Source: Gemmatimonadota bacterium (GTDB taxonomy: Bacteria; Gemmatimonadota; Gemmatimonadetes; Gemmatimonadales; GWC2-71-9). Taken from it: a stretch of DNA of 32,656 bases. Positions within the stretch are counted from its first letter, which is position 1; every line of letters begins with the position of its first letter. Shown piece after piece: positions 17,098 through 31,810 of this stretch. The stretch covers positions 1 to 32,656 of the forward strand of contig QHUZ01000044.1 of NCBI GenBank assembly GCA_003223395.1, in the 5' to 3' direction. The notes under the pieces were generated by a model that saw only the letters and a program-made list of their open reading frames with translations, had not been told where the DNA came from and did not search any database. Position numbers and translations under genes: made by a program.

Positions 17098-18681
17098 ATG
17101 CCGCTATCCCTGATTGCAACCCTGTGCTTGCTGACCACCCAGGCGCCTGGTGCGAGCCTGACGCCGCGGGATTCGGCCTTCCACGCGCTGAATCGTCTGG
17201 CGTACGGCGCCCGCCCCGGCGAAGCCGACAGCATCGCGCGGCTCGGCGTGATGCGGTGGATCGAGCAGCAGCTCGATGCTGATCACGTCCCCGACCCGCG
17301 AATCGCCGAGCACGAGCGCCAATTCAAGATCCTCGATTACGATCGCGCCGATCTCGCCGGTCGCTACCGGGACGCGACCCGCGAGCGCCAGCGTCTGCAG
17401 CGCGAGGCCGCGGCGACCGGCGACTCGACACGGATGCGCGATGCCCGCCCCATGCAGGAGTTCCGAGAGCTTGGCGGTCAACTGCAGCAGCTCGCCATCG
17501 TGCGTGCCGCCGTGTCAGAGCGGCAGCTCCGAGAGGTGATGGTCGATTTCTGGACCAATCATTTCAACGTGTTCGTCGGCAAGGGCGCCGATCGCTTCTT
17601 GCTGCCTTCCTATATAGAGGAAACGATCCGGCCGCGGGCATTCGGCCGCTTCGAGGACTTGCTCATCGCGACGGCCGAGAGTCCCGCGATGCTGTTCTAC
17701 CTCGACAATGCGCAGAGCGTGGCACCGGGCTCCAGACCTCCGGCGCAGCGCCCTCCGGCCTTCTTGTTGCGGCGACGGTTTGGAATGAATGAGATGCCCG
17801 AAGAGCGCCGGCAGCGGGAGCAGCGTCGGCCCACAGGCATCAACGAGAACTATGCGCGCGAGCTCCTCGAGCTCCACACCCTGGGCGTTGACGGTGGTTA
17901 CACCCAGCAGGACATCATCGAAGTCGCGCGCATCTTCACCGGTTGGAGCATCGAGCCCCCGGAACGGGGATCCGGTTTCGTGTTCCGCGACTGGGCCCAC
18001 GACCATGGAACGAAGCACGTCTTTGGGCTCACCTTCCGTGATGACGGCAAGGACGAAGGCATCAAGCTGCTCAAGTTCCTCGCGAACGAGCATGCCACGA
18101 TGCATCACGTCAGCGCCAAGCTGTGCGCGCGCTTCGTCGCCGATGAGCCGCCGGATGGGTGCGTCGACGCCGCCGTGACTGCCTGGCAACAGACGCACGG
18201 CGACATTCGCGCCGTACTGCGCGCCATCTTCACGTCCCCGGACTTCTGGTCGGCGCAGGCGGTCCGCTCCAAGGTCAAGACGCCCTTCGAATTCGTCGTG
18301 AGCGCGGTGCGCGCCACCGGCGTCGAGCCCGACGATACGCCGCGGCTCGCGCAGCTCGTCGCCCGCCTCGGCGAACCGCTGTACCAGCAACCCGCCCCGA
18401 CCGGCTATGCCGAGACCGAGGAGCATTGGGTGAACAGCGGCGCGCTGCTGGCGCGCATGAACGCCGCCATGATGCTCGCCAAGGATTGCTCCAGTATCCC
18501 CGCGATCGACGATCACGCCCAGCTGGTGGAAATGATCAATCAACAACTGCTTGCCGGCACGATGTCAGCGCATACGCGGACCGTCATTCTCGAGCAGCTG
18601 ACCGATATCCACGATCCTGAGCAGGCTCGGGTCATGGCCGTGGGCCTGGCCCTCGGTGGCCCGGACTTCCAAAGACAATAG
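17098..18681 (+). CDS. DUF1800 family protein, predicted exported
   Basis: The 527-residue protein belongs to DUF1800 (PF08811). Diagnostic strings are FHALNRLAYGARPGEAD, VDFWTNHFNVFVGKG, PAMLFYLDNAQSV and GINENYARELLELHTLGVDG, then GYTQQDIIEVARIFTGW and MHHVSAKLCARFVADEPP. The first 20 residues (MPLSLIATLCLLTTQAPGAS) look like a cleavable signal peptide. DUF1800 genes almost always sit beside DUF1501 genes, as here (29 nt apart). The biochemical role is unknown; a cell-surface or extracytoplasmic function is inferred from the signals. It is divergent from the ABC exporter gene with a 40-nt gap in which I see no distinct promoter. Confidence 0.93.
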   Translation: MPLSLIATLCLLTTQAPGASLTPRDSAFHALNRLAYGARPGEADSIARLGVMRWIEQQLDADHVPDPRIAEHERQFKILDYDRADLAGRYRDATRERQRLQREAAATGDSTRMRDARPMQEFRELGGQLQQLAIVRAAVSERQLREVMVDFWTNHFNVFVGKGADRFLLPSYIEETIRPRAFGRFEDLLIATAESPAMLFYLDNAQSVAPGSRPPAQRPPAFLLRRRFGMNEMPEERRQREQRRPTGINENYARELLELHTLGVDGGYTQQDIIEVARIFTGWSIEPPERGSGFVFRDWAHDHGTKHVFGLTFRDDGKDEGIKLLKFLANEHATMHHVSAKLCARFVADEPPDGCVDAAVTAWQQTHGDIRAVLRAIFTSPDFWSAQAVRSKVKTPFEFVVSAVRATGVEPDDTPRLAQLVARLGEPLYQQPAPTGYAETEEHWVNSGALLARMNAAMMLAKDCSSIPAIDDHAQLVEMINQQLLAGTMSAHTRTVILEQLTDIHDPEQARVMAVGLALGGPDFQRQ

Positions 18682-18710
18682 CGGCGGTAGGGGGCGGTAG
18701 GAGGCGGTAC
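18681..18710 (+). repeat. Three-copy GGCGGTAG-type decamer array carrying the DUF1501 Shine-Dalgarno site
   Basis: Three 10-nt units read GCGGCGGTAG, GGGGCGGTAG and GAGGCGGTAC. They begin at the last base of the DUF1800 stop and run to the base before the DUF1501 ATG. GGAGG at 18700-18704 within the array is the Shine-Dalgarno site for DUF1501. The array is complementary to a second array inside DUF1501 (18810-18849). Confidence 0.8.
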
Positions 18711-19973
18711 ATGTCGATCTCAAGACGGGTTTTTGTGAAGAACGGCGGGCTGGCGTTGGTCAGCCTGGGACTCGATCCGCTCTTTCTCGCAAGATCTGTA
18801 TTTGCGCGATACCGCCCCTTACCGCCCCCTACCGCCTCCGACCGCCCGATTTTGGTTTGTTTATTCCAGCGCGGCGCCGTGGACGGGTTGAACATGATCG
18901 TCCCGCATGGCGAGCCGGCGTACTACCAGGAGCGCCCCCGCATCGCGGTTCCTGCCGGCGACGTCGTCGATCTCGACGGCCATTTCGGCCTGCATCCGAG
19001 TCTCGCGCCACTCAAAGAGCTGTGGGACAACAAGAGCCTCGCGGCGATTCACGCGATCGGCTCACCCGACGCGACCCGCAGTCACTTCGATGCACAGGAC
19101 TATATGGAGACCGGCACGCCCGGTGTGAAGAGCACCGGCGACGGCTGGATGAACCGCTATTGCCAGCACGACCGCGAGCATGCCGACACGCCGTTCCGCG
19201 CGGTTGCGTTCGGACCGCAGTTGCCGCGCATCCTCGCCGGCAGTGCGCCGTCGCTTGCAATCGATGATCTGCAAGCGTTTGGTCTCCGCGTGCCACAGGA
19301 GGCCGCCCGCGATCGGCTGACGCGCGCCTTTGAGGAGCTGTACGACGGGGCCGGCACCGGGCTATTGGCGTCGTCGTCGCGCGAGGGATTCGAGGCGGTT
19401 CAGATGTTGAAGCGCGCCGACCCGACGCAGTACCGCCCCGCCGCCGGGGTCGAGTACCCGCCGGGCCGGTTAGGCAAGACGCTGCTCCAGATCGCGCAGC
19501 TCATCAAAGCGGACGTCGGGCTCGAGATCGCGTTCGCGGACTGCAGCGGCTGGGACACGCACGTGAACCAGGGCTCGAGCGACGGCCAGCTCGCCGCGCG
19601 GCTCCGTGAGCTGGGTCTGGCGCTCGCCGCGTTCAACCGTGACCTGGGCGAGCGCATGCACAACGTCGTCGTGCTCACCATGTCCGAGTTCGGCCGGACG
19701 ATCCGCGAAAACGGCAACAGCGGCACCGATCACGGCCATGCGACCGCCATGCTGGCGCTCGGCGGGCCGGTGAATGGCGGCCGAGTGCTGGGCAAGTGGC
19801 CGGGACTGGGTGTCGAGCAGCGCTTCGAGGGCCGCGACGTCGCGGTCACGACCGACTTCCGCGACCTCTTCGGTGAGATTCTGGCGCGTCACCTGAGCGC
19901 GACCGACCTGGGGACGGTCTTTCCCGGCTACACACCCAGCCCTGACAGATTCCTCGGAGCGATTCGCGGTTAG
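18711..19973 (+). CDS. DUF1501 family protein with Tat signal
   Basis: The 420-residue protein belongs to DUF1501 (PF07394). Family landmarks are LVCLFQRGAVDGLNMIVPHG, GLHPSLAPL, HAIGSPDATRSHFDAQDYME, DCSGWDTHVNQG and VLTMSEFGRTIRENG, then GTDHGHATAMLALG. The N-terminus MSISRRVFVKNGG has a twin-arginine motif (SRRVFVK), so it is exported folded, probably with a cofactor or metal. The fold is related to the alkaline phosphatase/sulfatase superfamily, but the substrate is unknown. The linker after the signal (RYRPLPPPTASDRP) is encoded by a decamer repeat array complementary to the array that carries the ribosome-binding site. It is paired with DUF1800 upstream. Confidence 0.94.
   Translation: MSISRRVFVKNGGLALVSLGLDPLFLARSVFARYRPLPPPTASDRPILVCLFQRGAVDGLNMIVPHGEPAYYQERPRIAVPAGDVVDLDGHFGLHPSLAPLKELWDNKSLAAIHAIGSPDATRSHFDAQDYMETGTPGVKSTGDGWMNRYCQHDREHADTPFRAVAFGPQLPRILAGSAPSLAIDDLQAFGLRVPQEAARDRLTRAFEELYDGAGTGLLASSSREGFEAVQMLKRADPTQYRPAAGVEYPPGRLGKTLLQIAQLIKADVGLEIAFADCSGWDTHVNQGSSDGQLAARLRELGLALAAFNRDLGERMHNVVVLTMSEFGRTIRENGNSGTDHGHATAMLALGGPVNGGRVLGKWPGLGVEQRFEGRDVAVTTDFRDLFGEILARHLSATDLGTVFPGYTPSPDRFLGAIRG
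18810..18849 (+). repeat. Inverted decamer array inside the DUF1501 signal/linker region
   Basis: Four 10-nt units read TACCGCCCCT, TACCGCCCCC, TACCGCCTCC and GACCGCCCGA. The first three are the reverse complement of the array at 18681-18710, with about three mismatches over 29 positions. The units stay in frame as a Pro/Arg-rich linker. In mRNA the two arrays could form a long stem enclosing the start codon. Confidence 0.75.
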
Positions 19974-28069: not shown

Positions 28070-29455
28070 GTGTTGTGGCTGGCGCTCGTGAGTGGCTGTG
28101 GCCGCCAGCCTGTCGCCTCGGTGTGGGTCACCACGGGCGATCAGCGGAAACTCCTTTCCCGCGAACCCGACGTTGCTTTCTCGACGGCTGACACGACGGG
28201 ACTTCCGACGATCGCCGTGGCCGACACGCCGAGCTATCAGGAAATGGTGGGGTTCGGCGCGGCACTCACCGACGCGTCCGCGTTACTGATCAACGGGCTA
28301 CCGCCCGATCGCCGGGACTCGTTGCTGCGTGACCTGTTCGACCGGGACAACGGAATTGGCTTGAGCTTCACGCGACTCACCATCGGCGCGTCCGACTTCT
28401 CGCCGACTCATTACACCTTCGACGACATGCCGCCGGGACAGCACGATTCGTCGTTGCTGCGCTTCTCGATCGAACCGGATCGCGCGCACCGGTTGCCGGT
28501 GCTGCGGCGTGCCCTGGCGATCAACCCGGAGCTCAGGATCATGGCGTCGCCGTGGAGCGCCCCCGCCTGGATGAAGACCAGCGACAAGCTCATCGGGGGC
28601 ACGTTGCGTCCCGATGCGTACGGGCCGTTCGCGGAGTATCTGGCGCGCTATGTCGACGCCTACGCGGCCGAGGGCGTGCCGATCTTCGCGCTCACGGTGC
28701 AGAACGAGCCGCACTACGAGCCTGGAGACTACCCGGGCATGCGGCTCGAGCCGCCCGCGCGAGCGCGCCTCATCGCCGCATACCTCGGCCCGCGGCTCGC
28801 GCGCGCCGGATCCCGGACTCTCATCTTCGATTGGGATCACAACTGGGATCAGCCGCAGTCGCCGCTCCAGGTGCTCGCCGACAGCGTGGCGCGCCGCTAT
28901 GTCGCAGGAGTGGCGTGGCATTGCTATGGCGGTGACGTAGCCGCCCAGGGGACGGTGCACGACGCCTATCCCGCGGTGGATGCCTACTTCACGGAATGCT
29001 CGGGCGGCGACTGGGCGCCGAAGTTCGCGGAGAATCTTCTTTGGGGCACGCAGCACCTGATCATCGGGGCGACGCGCAACTGGGCGCGCGGTGTGCTGTT
29101 CTGGAATCTCGCGCTGGACGAGAACCATGGTCCCCACCTCGGCGGATGCGGCAATTGCCGCGGCGTGGTCACCATCGACTCCAAATCGGGCGCCGTCACG
29201 CGCAACGACGAGTACTACGTGCTGGCGCACGCCAGCCGGTTCGTGCGCCAAGGCGCGCGGCGCATCGCATCGTCATCCGGTGTGGCTGGGCTCGAGAGCG
29301 TCGCGTTCAGGAATCCCGACGGCTCTCGCGTGCTCATCGTGGTGAACACGGCCGCTGGGGAACAACGGTTCGCGGTCCGATCTGCAGGAAAAACGCTGAT
29401 CTACGTGTTGCCGGCGGGCGCCGTGGCGACGCTGCGCTGGCTAGATCGAGTTTAG
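28070..29455 (+). CDS. GH30-family glycoside hydrolase lipoprotein
   Basis: The mature 450-residue protein matches GH30 (glucosylceramidase-like / endo-beta-glycanase). The opening is EMVGFGAALTDASALLINGL, the acid/base Glu lies in TVQNEPHYEPGD, and the nucleophile Glu lies in AYFTECSGGDW. The closing beta-sandwich ends with LPAGAVATLRW. It acts on beta-glycans outside the cytoplasm; substrate linkage cannot be fixed. The lipobox LVSGC is clear. The start is problematic. The nearest canonical codon is GTG at 28070, giving only 10 residues before the Cys and no positive charge. A natural signal ([15 protein letters not shown]) would begin at GTA 28055-28057, which has GGGGA 7 nt upstream and overlaps the aconitase stop. 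Confidence 0.9.
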   Translation: MLWLALVSGCGRQPVASVWVTTGDQRKLLSREPDVAFSTADTTGLPTIAVADTPSYQEMVGFGAALTDASALLINGLPPDRRDSLLRDLFDRDNGIGLSFTRLTIGASDFSPTHYTFDDMPPGQHDSSLLRFSIEPDRAHRLPVLRRALAINPELRIMASPWSAPAWMKTSDKLIGGTLRPDAYGPFAEYLARYVDAYAAEGVPIFALTVQNEPHYEPGDYPGMRLEPPARARLIAAYLGPRLARAGSRTLIFDWDHNWDQPQSPLQVLADSVARRYVAGVAWHCYGGDVAAQGTVHDAYPAVDAYFTECSGGDWAPKFAENLLWGTQHLIIGATRNWARGVLFWNLALDENHGPHLGGCGNCRGVVTIDSKSGAVTRNDEYYVLAHASRFVRQGARRIASSSGVAGLESVAFRNPDGSRVLIVVNTAAGEQRFAVRSAGKTLIYVLPAGAVATLRWLDRV

Positions 29456-29878
29456 AAAAGCCTCGAGCTCGGCCGGCGGCACGGCGCCCACCCGGCGCGC
29501 CACTTCCTTGCCGTCCCGGAACGCGATCAAGGTCGGAATTCCCCGCACACCGAAGCGCGTGCCGGCAGCCGGATTCCGATCGGTGTCGAGCTTTGTCACG
29601 AGGATCTGGCCGGCGCGGCGGCGCGCGACGTCATCCAAGAGCGGCGCCATGATCTTGCAGGGCCCGCACCAGTCCGCGTAAAAGTCCACCACCACCGGCA
29701 CCGTGCTGTCGGTGGTGACCCGCTCGAACGACGCATCGGAAATCGCGATGGGACGGTCCAGCCGGATCGGCTTGCCGCACTTGCCGCATTTGGGGTGCTG
29801 TTCGATGCGCGCGAGGTCCACGCGATTGAGGGTTTCGCAGAACGGGCAGACGACGGTCGCTGTTTGCGCGCTAGCCAT
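29441..29878 (-). CDS. trxC: Thioredoxin 2 (zinc-containing TrxC)
   Basis: The 145-residue protein has an N-terminal zinc ribbon (CPFC, Cys11/Cys14, and CGKC, Cys31/Cys34) followed by a thioredoxin domain with active site WCGPC (Cys71/Cys74) and the cis-Pro in RGIPTLIAF. TrxC reduces disulfides and peroxidases in the cytoplasm and is often oxidative-stress induced. The gene lies 10 nt downstream of the AhpD-like selenoprotein gene on the same strand, so it is a strong candidate for that enzyme's reductant. The 3' end overlaps the convergent GH30 gene by 15 nt. Confidence 0.95.
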   Translation of the reverse strand: MASAQTATVVCPFCETLNRVDLARIEQHPKCGKCGKPIRLDRPIAISDASFERVTTDSTVPVVVDFYADWCGPCKIMAPLLDDVARRRAGQILVTKLDTDRNPAAGTRFGVRGIPTLIAFRDGKEVARRVGAVPPAELEAFLNSI

Positions 29879-29888
29879 GAATCAGACA

Positions 29889-30455
29889 TCACCCCCGGCC
29901 AACGCCGAGGGCATCGGCCACACGGTTGATGTAATTGAACCACGACGCGATCAGCGTGATCTGCAGAATTGCCCGATCGTCGAATCCTACTCGGCGCAGC
30001 TCCTTATGGTGCGCCGGGCCGATGCGCGTGGCGTCGCGCGTGAGCTGCGCCACGTAGTCCAGCATCACCCGTTCCTGCTCCGAGATCGGCGCCTTGGTGT
30101 AATCGTCCTCGAGCGCCGCCACGAGCGACTGATCCAGCGTGATCCGACGCAGAAACTCTGCGTGGGATTCAATTCAGTATCGGCAGCGATTCGTGACCGA
30201 GACGACCGTGGTGATCATCTCGTGCTGGCGGCGCGTGAGCGGCAGGTCGGACGACATGAGCGCCCCAAAGGTCGCAAACGCGTGATACAGCGCGTCGGGG
30301 ATCAGGCTGTGCGAGGCGACGATGCCGGACGTCCCGTCAGCCGTGGGGTGGACCGGCGTCGCGTATTCCTTGGGGTACATCGCCTTCTGCGCCTCTACGG
30401 CACGGCGCAGCTTCTCATCCCCCTCGCTCAGCGGAACTGTGCGAATCCAGGTCAT
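29889..30455 (-). CDS. AhpD-like peroxidase-related selenoprotein with in-frame TGA (Sec94)
   Basis: Read through the TGA at 30174-30176, the frame gives 188 residues of the AhpD / carboxymuconolactone decarboxylase fold, closest to the 'uncharacterised peroxidase-related' subgroup. The 93 residues before the TGA end in [19 protein letters not shown]. The sequence after it continues without a frame shift as [20 protein letters not shown] and ends [16 protein letters not shown]. The TGA stands where the family has the second Cys of CxxCxxxH, giving Cys91-x-x-Sec94-x-x-x-His98. A bSECIS-like hairpin starts 5 nt downstream of the TGA. The AGGA before the ATG is supplied by a heptad repeat. Upstream is an amino-acid permease gene, downstream trxC. 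Selenocysteine genes are not in the window. The alternative is a pseudogene or a base error. Confidence 0.88.
30142..30168 (-). promoter_or_regulatory. Candidate bacterial SECIS element
   Basis: The RNA-sense strand forms a stem of AUCC/GGAU (4 bp), one C-C mismatch, then ACGCAG/CUGCGU (6 bp), closed by the loop AGUUU. The loop G is the second loop base and lies 18 nt after the UGA. This agrees with the described bacterial consensus of a short-looped hairpin with G among the first two loop bases, about 16-37 nt downstream of UGA. It lies inside the coding region, as bacterial SECIS elements do. Confidence 0.75.
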
Positions 30456-30460
30456 CGGAT

Positions 30461-30516
30461 CCTAGGGGTTAGGGGCTAGGAGCTAGGGGCTAGGGGTTCG
30501 GGGTTCGGGCTAGGCC
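30461..30516. repeat. Seven-copy GCTAGGG heptad array between permease and selenoprotein genes
   Basis: On the plus strand the units read CCTAGGG, GTTAGGG, GCTAGGA, GCTAGGG, GCTAGGG, GTTCGGG and GTTCGGG, then a diverged CTAGGCC. On the coding (minus) strand the array encodes the Pro/Ser/Asn-rich tail of the permease, includes its stop, and runs to 5 nt before the selenoprotein ATG. It supplies AGGA as a Shine-Dalgarno site there. Confidence 0.85.
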
Positions 30517-31810
30517 GTCCACGAAAAAGTAGATAGTAGACTGGCACCCCAACGGCGACAATACCGACACCGAGCGCGGCCTGCAGCGGGTTGCGGGCGG
30601 CCACTAAGAAGAGCACCACGGCGACCAGCACGAGAAACACGACCGGCGTGGCTGGATAACCCCAGGTGCGGTACGACGCCGCAGGTGCGCGGCGCCGGAT
30701 GCCGAACAGGCCCGCCACGGTCAACCCGACGAACAGCACCGTCACGAAGACGAAGTACCCGATGATTTGATTGAACGTGCCCAACGCCACGTAGAGCGAG
30801 GCGATCGCCGCCTGGATCGCGATGGCGCGAGCCGGGGTTCCGAAGCGCGGATGCTCGGCGGCCACTGCCCTGAAGAACACACCGTCGCTCGCCATCGCGT
30901 AATAGACGCGCGGCAGTGCCATGAGCAGCCCGAGCAAACTGCCCAGCACCGCGACGATGACCACGCCCGAGAACACGCGGCCGCCCGCCGGTCCGAACAA
31001 CGCCTCGCCGGCTTGCGCCGCGAACGTCTCGCCGGACGTCACGCGCTCGAGCGGGACGAGATAGAGAAAGACGGCGCTCGTCAAGATGTAGATGGCGGTG
31101 ATGATCGCCACCCCGATCGCAAGCGCGCGCGGCACCGTGCGGGCGGGATCCCGCGCTTCCCCCGCCAGCTTGGGGATTTCCCACCAGCCTCCGAATGCAA
31201 AGAACGCGCCGACCAACCCCGCGGCCAACGCCATTGGAAGCGGATCCGAACCGGCCCGCTGCGCGACGAAGGGCACGAAGTTCGACCAGCTTCCTGCGTG
31301 CAGCGCGAATGCCAGAATCGCAATGAGTGCCAGCGCGCCGAGCTTCAGCGCGGTGAGGCCCTGCATGAGTCCGGAGCCGAGCCGCAGGCCCGCGATATTG
31401 ACCGCCGAGATCGCAAGGATGGACCCGATCGCGATGAGTTTGAGCCACACGCCGGAAACGCCCAGCGCGTAGCCGACGTAGCTCGCGAGTCCGGCGGCCA
31501 GTGCCGCGGTGATGCCGGGATCCATGACGAGCAGGCATTTCCAGCCGTACAGGAAGGCGACCGCGGGACCATAGGCTTCACGCAGGTACACATAGCCGCC
31601 GCCCGCCTGGGGCGTTCGTGCCGCGAGCTCGCCATAACACAGTGCGCCGCTCAGCGCCATCACACCCATGACCAGCCAAACGACCAACAACCAAAACGGC
31701 GAGCCCAGCGAGCGCGCCATGCCCGCCGGCGTGAGAAAAATCCCGATGGCCACGACCTCGCCAACGACGAGTGCCGTGACGGCGACGAGACCAAGCTGAC
31801 GGCGTAGCAC
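30476..31810 (-). CDS. APC-superfamily amino-acid permease
   Basis: The 444-residue protein has about 12 hydrophobic segments. The APC opening motif is present (LVVGEVVAIGIFLTPAGMAR in TM1, with the unwound G-I-G-I-F-type site), followed by ALCYGELAARTPQAGGGYVY in TM2-loop. TM6 reads FFAFGGWWEIPKLAGEARDP, where the usual WE-NLPGEVKNP-type conserved stretch follows. It most resembles LAT-like amino-acid transporters; the substrate is unknown. It starts at GTG 31810 with no clear Shine-Dalgarno site. TATCTT lies about 7 nt upstream and might be a -10 element. The C-terminal tail is encoded by the heptad repeat and looks unstructured. The selenoprotein gene begins 20 nt downstream. Confidence 0.9.
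   Translation of the reverse strand: MLRRQLGLVAVTALVVGEVVAIGIFLTPAGMARSLGSPFWLLVVWLVMGVMALSGALCYGELAARTPQAGGGYVYLREAYGPAVAFLYGWKCLLVMDPGITAALAAGLASYVGYALGVSGVWLKLIAIGSILAISAVNIAGLRLGSGLMQGLTALKLGALALIAILAFALHAGSWSNFVPFVAQRAGSDPLPMALAAGLVGAFFAFGGWWEIPKLAGEARDPARTVPRALAIGVAIITAIYILTSAVFLYLVPLERVTSGETFAAQAGEALFGPAGGRVFSGVVIVAVLGSLLGLLMALPRVYYAMASDGVFFRAVAAEHPRFGTPARAIAIQAAIASLYVALGTFNQIIGYFVFVTVLFVGLTVAGLFGIRRRAPAASYRTWGYPATPVVFLVLVAVVLFLVAARNPLQAALGVGIVAVGVPVYYLLFRGRPSPNPEPLAPSS

Follow-up and report, generated by a model that had tools for sequence, protein, structure and literature searches.

Sec-containing AhpD-like proteins with a CxxU site have been on record since 2005 (PMC1088965). A 2006 list gives them as AhpD-like (COG2128; PMC1794560), and in 2008 they were found, as "AhpD-like 1", to be abundant in marine data (PMC2398784); a 2026 review lists the AhpD-like selenoprotein with TIGR01926 (PMC13188914). 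The bSECIS model in that review has a stem of 4 to 16 bp, a loop of 3 to 9 nt with a G in its first two bases and the form N1-G-[G/U]-N-N2, a spacing of 16 to 37 nt and an MFE of at most -7.5 kcal/mol (PMC13188914, Fig. 2 legend).

Here we describe such a locus in a 32,656-nt stretch of DNA from a soil bacterium of the Gemmatimonadota, referred to as the window. Like the published COG2128 (YciW)/TIGR01926 selenoprotein, the window protein has a CxxU site with a predicted bSECIS downstream. The element agrees with the published consensus in its 6-bp stem and its N1-G-U-N-N2 loop, whose A and U are able to pair; in contrast, its spacing of 16 nt lies at the short end of the range, and its sequence is frozen, not variable, within the close family. 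The members described here come from Gemmatimonadota and Acidobacteriota and have a nearly invariant hairpin core, two features that set them apart from the published COG2128 example as described. Their subfamily also has a stretch of about 20 to 30 residues N-terminal to the core that is absent in more distant members. In a partial search of the literature, we found no report linking the AhpD-like selenoprotein family to Gemmatimonadota. With signal and protein family already known, the locus would be a new and very well supported member, unusually clean in that its 18-base hairpin core has hardly changed across two phyla.

An AhpD-like gene interrupted by UGA

The gene and its immediate neighbors are as follows.

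29889-30455, minus strand: AhpD-like (TIGR01926) gene of 188 residues, internal UGA predicted to be read as a residue
30176-30174, minus strand: predicted Sec UGA codon, residue 94
30476-31810, minus strand: APC-type amino acid permease (PF13520), directly upstream of the selenoprotein gene
29441-29878, minus strand: thioredoxin 2 (TrxC-like; NF008229, 128.1 bits against a cut-off of 125), 10 nt downstream

The codons for NRCRY directly precede the UGA, giving a CxxU site (C91-R-Y-U94) in which the UGA takes the place of the second Cys of CxxC. Translation with table 11 ends the ORF at 30174, and a standard gene caller returns a 93-residue stub, cutting at the UGA a gene that soil Gemmatimonadota and Acidobacteriota commonly carry. 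This ORF end would fit a true stop, that is, a pseudogene, a sequencing error or a truncated protein followed by an accidental hairpin, but that reading is already refuted by the homologues and is highly improbable: the same UGA and an intact downstream frame recur in 116 homologues of at least 50% identity, residues encoded after the UGA, H98, R178 and G184 among them, do not vary, and synonymous sites are frozen in the hairpin core only.

The protein matches the TIGR01926 family, in whose annotation name "peroxidase-related" appears, with 110.9 bits (cut-off, 81.8), and PF02627 also matches. The (seleno)protein equivalogs NF041238 and NF053654 score below cut-off (55.4 versus 175 and 36.3 versus 310 bits), and we would class the protein as related to them, not as a member. 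The motif reads E79...C91-R-Y-U94-I-E-S-H98; an alignment of 25 members, Cys forms among them, shows no variation at E79, C91, Y93, Cys/Sec94 or H98. In its Glu-12-Cys and Cys-4-His spacings, the motif presumably resembles the proton relay known from mycobacterial AhpD. The predicted model (pLDDT 93.7) has an AhpD-type helical fold, shared at a TM of about 0.8 with the AhpD-type "peroxidase-related" structures 2PRR, 6K40, 2PFX, 2OYO and 3C1L (0.83 for 2PRR and 6K40), largely uncharacterized proteins that also resemble the window protein in sequence. The best-aligned of these, 2PFX, has CxxC where the window protein has CxxU.

As for the neighborhood, an APC permease homologue lies directly upstream on the same strand in 26 of 94 close loci from more than one phylum, an association that is suggestive only. 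We also considered whether the gene and thioredoxin form a conserved operon; a matching neighbor was found only beside the nearest relatives, and thioredoxin is therefore not a general partner. Between permease and selenoprotein gene lies a series of G-rich near-repeats (taggggttaggggctagg...ggggttcggggttcggg; window 30462-30512). Elsewhere in the window (17098-19973), a DUF1800 gene is followed by an adjacent DUF1501 gene on the same strand.

A hairpin directly downstream of the UGA

The initial annotation had described a hairpin starting 5 nt after the UGA, with 10 pairs, a single C-C mismatch and the loop AGUUU. The sequence bears this out: in minus-strand order, UGA is followed by AUUGA, AUCC, C, ACGCAG, AGUUU, CUGCGU, C and GGAU, placing the stem-loop at 30168-30142 with its start at 30168 and the mismatch at +10/+28. 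The loop G, claimed at +18, is indeed there (30156). The elements are listed below.

30147-30164, minus strand: constrained core of the predicted bSECIS, CACGCAGAGTTTCTGCGT (+10 to +27, 18 bases)
30158-30163, minus strand: upper stem 5' arm ACGCAG, pairing conserved
30153-30157, minus strand: apical loop AGUUU, conserved G at 30156 (+18)
30147-30152, minus strand: upper stem 3' arm CUGCGU, third base of Leu102 covaries with +14
30165-30168, minus strand: proposed lower stem 5' arm AUCC, present in the window sequence, not conserved
30142-30145, minus strand: proposed lower stem 3' arm GGAU, present in the window sequence, not conserved

The stem-loop lies within the coding region, immediately 3' of the in-frame Sec UGA, with an upper stem of 6 bp, a 5-nt loop that has G as its second base and starts at +17 (UGA-to-loop spacing, 16 nt), and an MFE of -15.2 kcal/mol (z = -1.94; 10 of 200 shuffles fold equally well). 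Rfam searched over the whole window at gathering thresholds gave no match. The genome contains a single exact copy of the 17-base stem-loop; a near-match at C61:10119 was dismissed for want of a TGA 10 to 44 nt upstream.

How surprising is such a hairpin? The initial annotation had called its chance low, which holds for the precise stem and fails for bSECIS-like hairpins at large. Among synonymous recodings of the same peptide, 3.3% give the six upper pairs, 0.18% give all ten, and 0.08% fold as stably as the native hairpin. In contrast, a loose bSECIS rule (at least 6 bp, a loop of 3 to 9 nt, G in the first two loop bases, spacing of 16 to 37 nt) is satisfied after 160 of the 802 TGAs (20%) in this GC-rich window, a frequency that also speaks for an accidental hairpin behind a true stop. 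Because the loose rule is satisfied so often, the single-sequence match is helpful, of moderate weight and, alone, not decisive; the comparative data on the hairpin are decisive.

Synonymous constraint on the hairpin core

The homologues belong to Gemmatimonadota and Acidobacteriota, apart from a few records with other labels, and the loci named individually here were found by peptide patterns lying wholly outside the hairpin. At residue 94, all 99 homologues of at least 50% identity have TGA, and more distant forms have Cys; the 18-base core (+10 to +27) is identical in 92 of the 99. With a further set added, TGA is present in 116 of 117 such homologues and the core is identical in 104 of the 116, all of which (116/116) keep the hairpin core. 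The loop G, whose conservation had been proposed as a check, is invariant at +18 across 41 diverse rows; an earlier set had it in 72 of 75 contexts, and in the other 3 the hairpin is relocated.

An obvious concern is that these 18 bases encode HAEFLR, including the active-site His98, and that base pairing is a mere by-product of protein conservation. The peptide does contain the invariant H98 and L102. Against this, codon entropy is 0 to 0.22 bits at codons 98 to 103, compared with an average of 1.33 at other conserved codons, and the constraint has abrupt edges, synonymous positions being free on either side (1.88 bits at codon 97 and 2.10 bits at codon 104). Moreover, some codons of the core are seldom used in the rest of these genes (GCA, 8.5%; CGT, 9.7%; TTT, 28.5%). 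Pairing is also kept despite residue changes: a distant Sec clade (HHGAGLR) carries ACGGRG-CGGGN-CUCCGU, L201 has F101L, and R103C in L197 yields a G-U pair. Since Cys forms lack the pairing as well, we regard protein conservation as a very improbable explanation. What the alignments show is RNA-level constraint on the core at synonymous sites, and none on the lower four pairs.

Covariation and relocation of the stem

Stem covariation among Sec homologues had been named beforehand as a test, and for the upper stem the outcome was positive, with a C-G to G-C exchange at +14/+24. In 41 diverse contexts, an alignment that left out the clearly relocated hairpins of L088 and L104, 98.4% of upper-stem cells are paired and no pair at +14/+24 is broken; with all 127 contexts included, pairing of the upper stem stands at 97.5%. 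Over these 127, the third base of the Leu102 codon follows +14: with C at +14 the codon is CTG (71 contexts), with G it is CTC (50) or CTT (2). The four remaining contexts (L069, L088, L101 and L104) have C at both positions. L069 forms the stem in a shifted register, and L088, L101 and L104 carry the hairpin GACCUC-CGGGCU-GAGGUC about 8 nt further downstream, with its loop starting at +25. In these last three loci, the predicted bSECIS has thus changed its place inside a single family. The +14/+24 change nevertheless reflects few independent events on the tree, a point in favor of protein conservation, and too few for significance in an independent-pairs test; the case therefore rests mainly on the synonymous constraint and on the Sec/Cys contrasts.

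The 10-bp stem of the initial annotation fared unevenly: its upper 6 bp and loop are constrained, but its lower four pairs (AUCC/GGAU) find no support. Covariation of the lower stem was rejected, with 32.9% of its cells paired in the 41 contexts versus the upper-stem figure given above. All four lower pairs are present in 8 of 79 unique close contexts, and pairing is no better than in shuffled sequences; most close sequences can pair somewhat below the core in other registers. The comparison argues for a functional stem of 6 bp, not one of 10 bp interrupted by a mismatch; the lower pairs, in the proposed register, seem dispensable.

Cys forms and the distribution of SelA

The bSECIS-like structure, conserved in Sec homologues, is absent from Cys homologues, with none of nine forming the stem. 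Two Sec/Cys contrasts can be placed on the tree, both accompanied by stem loss. L086 is a Cys form nested among Sec forms and has a degraded version of the hairpin. L195 (G412:C125:5361-6118) is a Cys form of the close subfamily, 65% identical to the window protein, in which UGA has become TGC, the hairpin is lost and the partner Cys91 is replaced by Thr (NRTRYC). Its genome gave no match to SelA in a search in which nine other genomes matched.

The same pattern extends across the window's phylum. SelA is matched in 28 of 30 genomes with a Sec form (three matches being partial and below cut-off) and in 1 of 10 genomes whose best match is a Cys form. SelA was without a match in two UGA-form genomes, G390 (81% complete) and G146 (95% complete), which may be due to assembly gaps.

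These data also bear on whether the UGA might be an ordinary sense codon, through a reassigned code or Trp suppression, beside a hairpin without a role. An open frame beyond the UGA is what such a codon would give, but Cys is the aligned residue in homologues without UGA, the gene itself terminates at a second UGA (29891-29889) followed by only a weak fold (-5.3 kcal/mol), a complete Sec machinery is encoded in the genome, and, from one genome to the next, the UGA form goes with SelA. Of the readings weighed here, we consider a sense codon the most improbable.

Sec machinery and predicted decoding

The window's own genome encodes SelB, SelA, tRNA-Sec (anticodon UCA) and a Sec-containing SelD (L048, G000:C109:25106-26038) with UGA-encoded Sec at residue 18 (SHGAGUACKLGP). 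As in the AhpD-like gene, a 6-bp stem lies downstream of the UGA in SelD and closes a loop that contains GU (GGCGCA-GGUCU-UGCGCC). The two hairpins differ in that the SelD loop starts at +33, with G as its first base, compared with +17 for the AhpD-like gene; both are presumably read by the same SelB. The genome also has a second AhpD-like gene (L111, G000:C94:36024-36350), 35% identical and with a single in-frame TGA, at the CxxC position (NQCVF-U).

Taken together, we are nearly certain, on comparative grounds, that the hairpin is a bSECIS that directs Sec insertion at the UGA of the AhpD-like gene, and we predict readthrough. From established knowledge of bacterial Sec decoding, we infer that SelB with Sec-tRNA-Sec(UCA) would bind the upper stem and its loop with the UGA positioned in the A site, and that Sec would be inserted at residue 94, the second CxxU position, in place of termination. 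The product would be an AhpD-fold CxxU protein, probably a peroxide- or disulfide-active enzyme.

Implications

More tentatively, gene and signal may form a portable unit built on a minimal bSECIS, its 18-base core all but frozen across phyla, rebuilt or moved about 8 nt downstream in sister clades and served by a SelB that needs only six base pairs and the loop G; we offer this as a possibility, one that we would not yet bet on. With hairpins that are identical, compensated, relocated or lost, each matchable to Sec or Cys and to the presence or absence of SelA, the AhpD-like family amounts to a natural experiment in which the minimal requirements of a bacterial SECIS would be directly testable.
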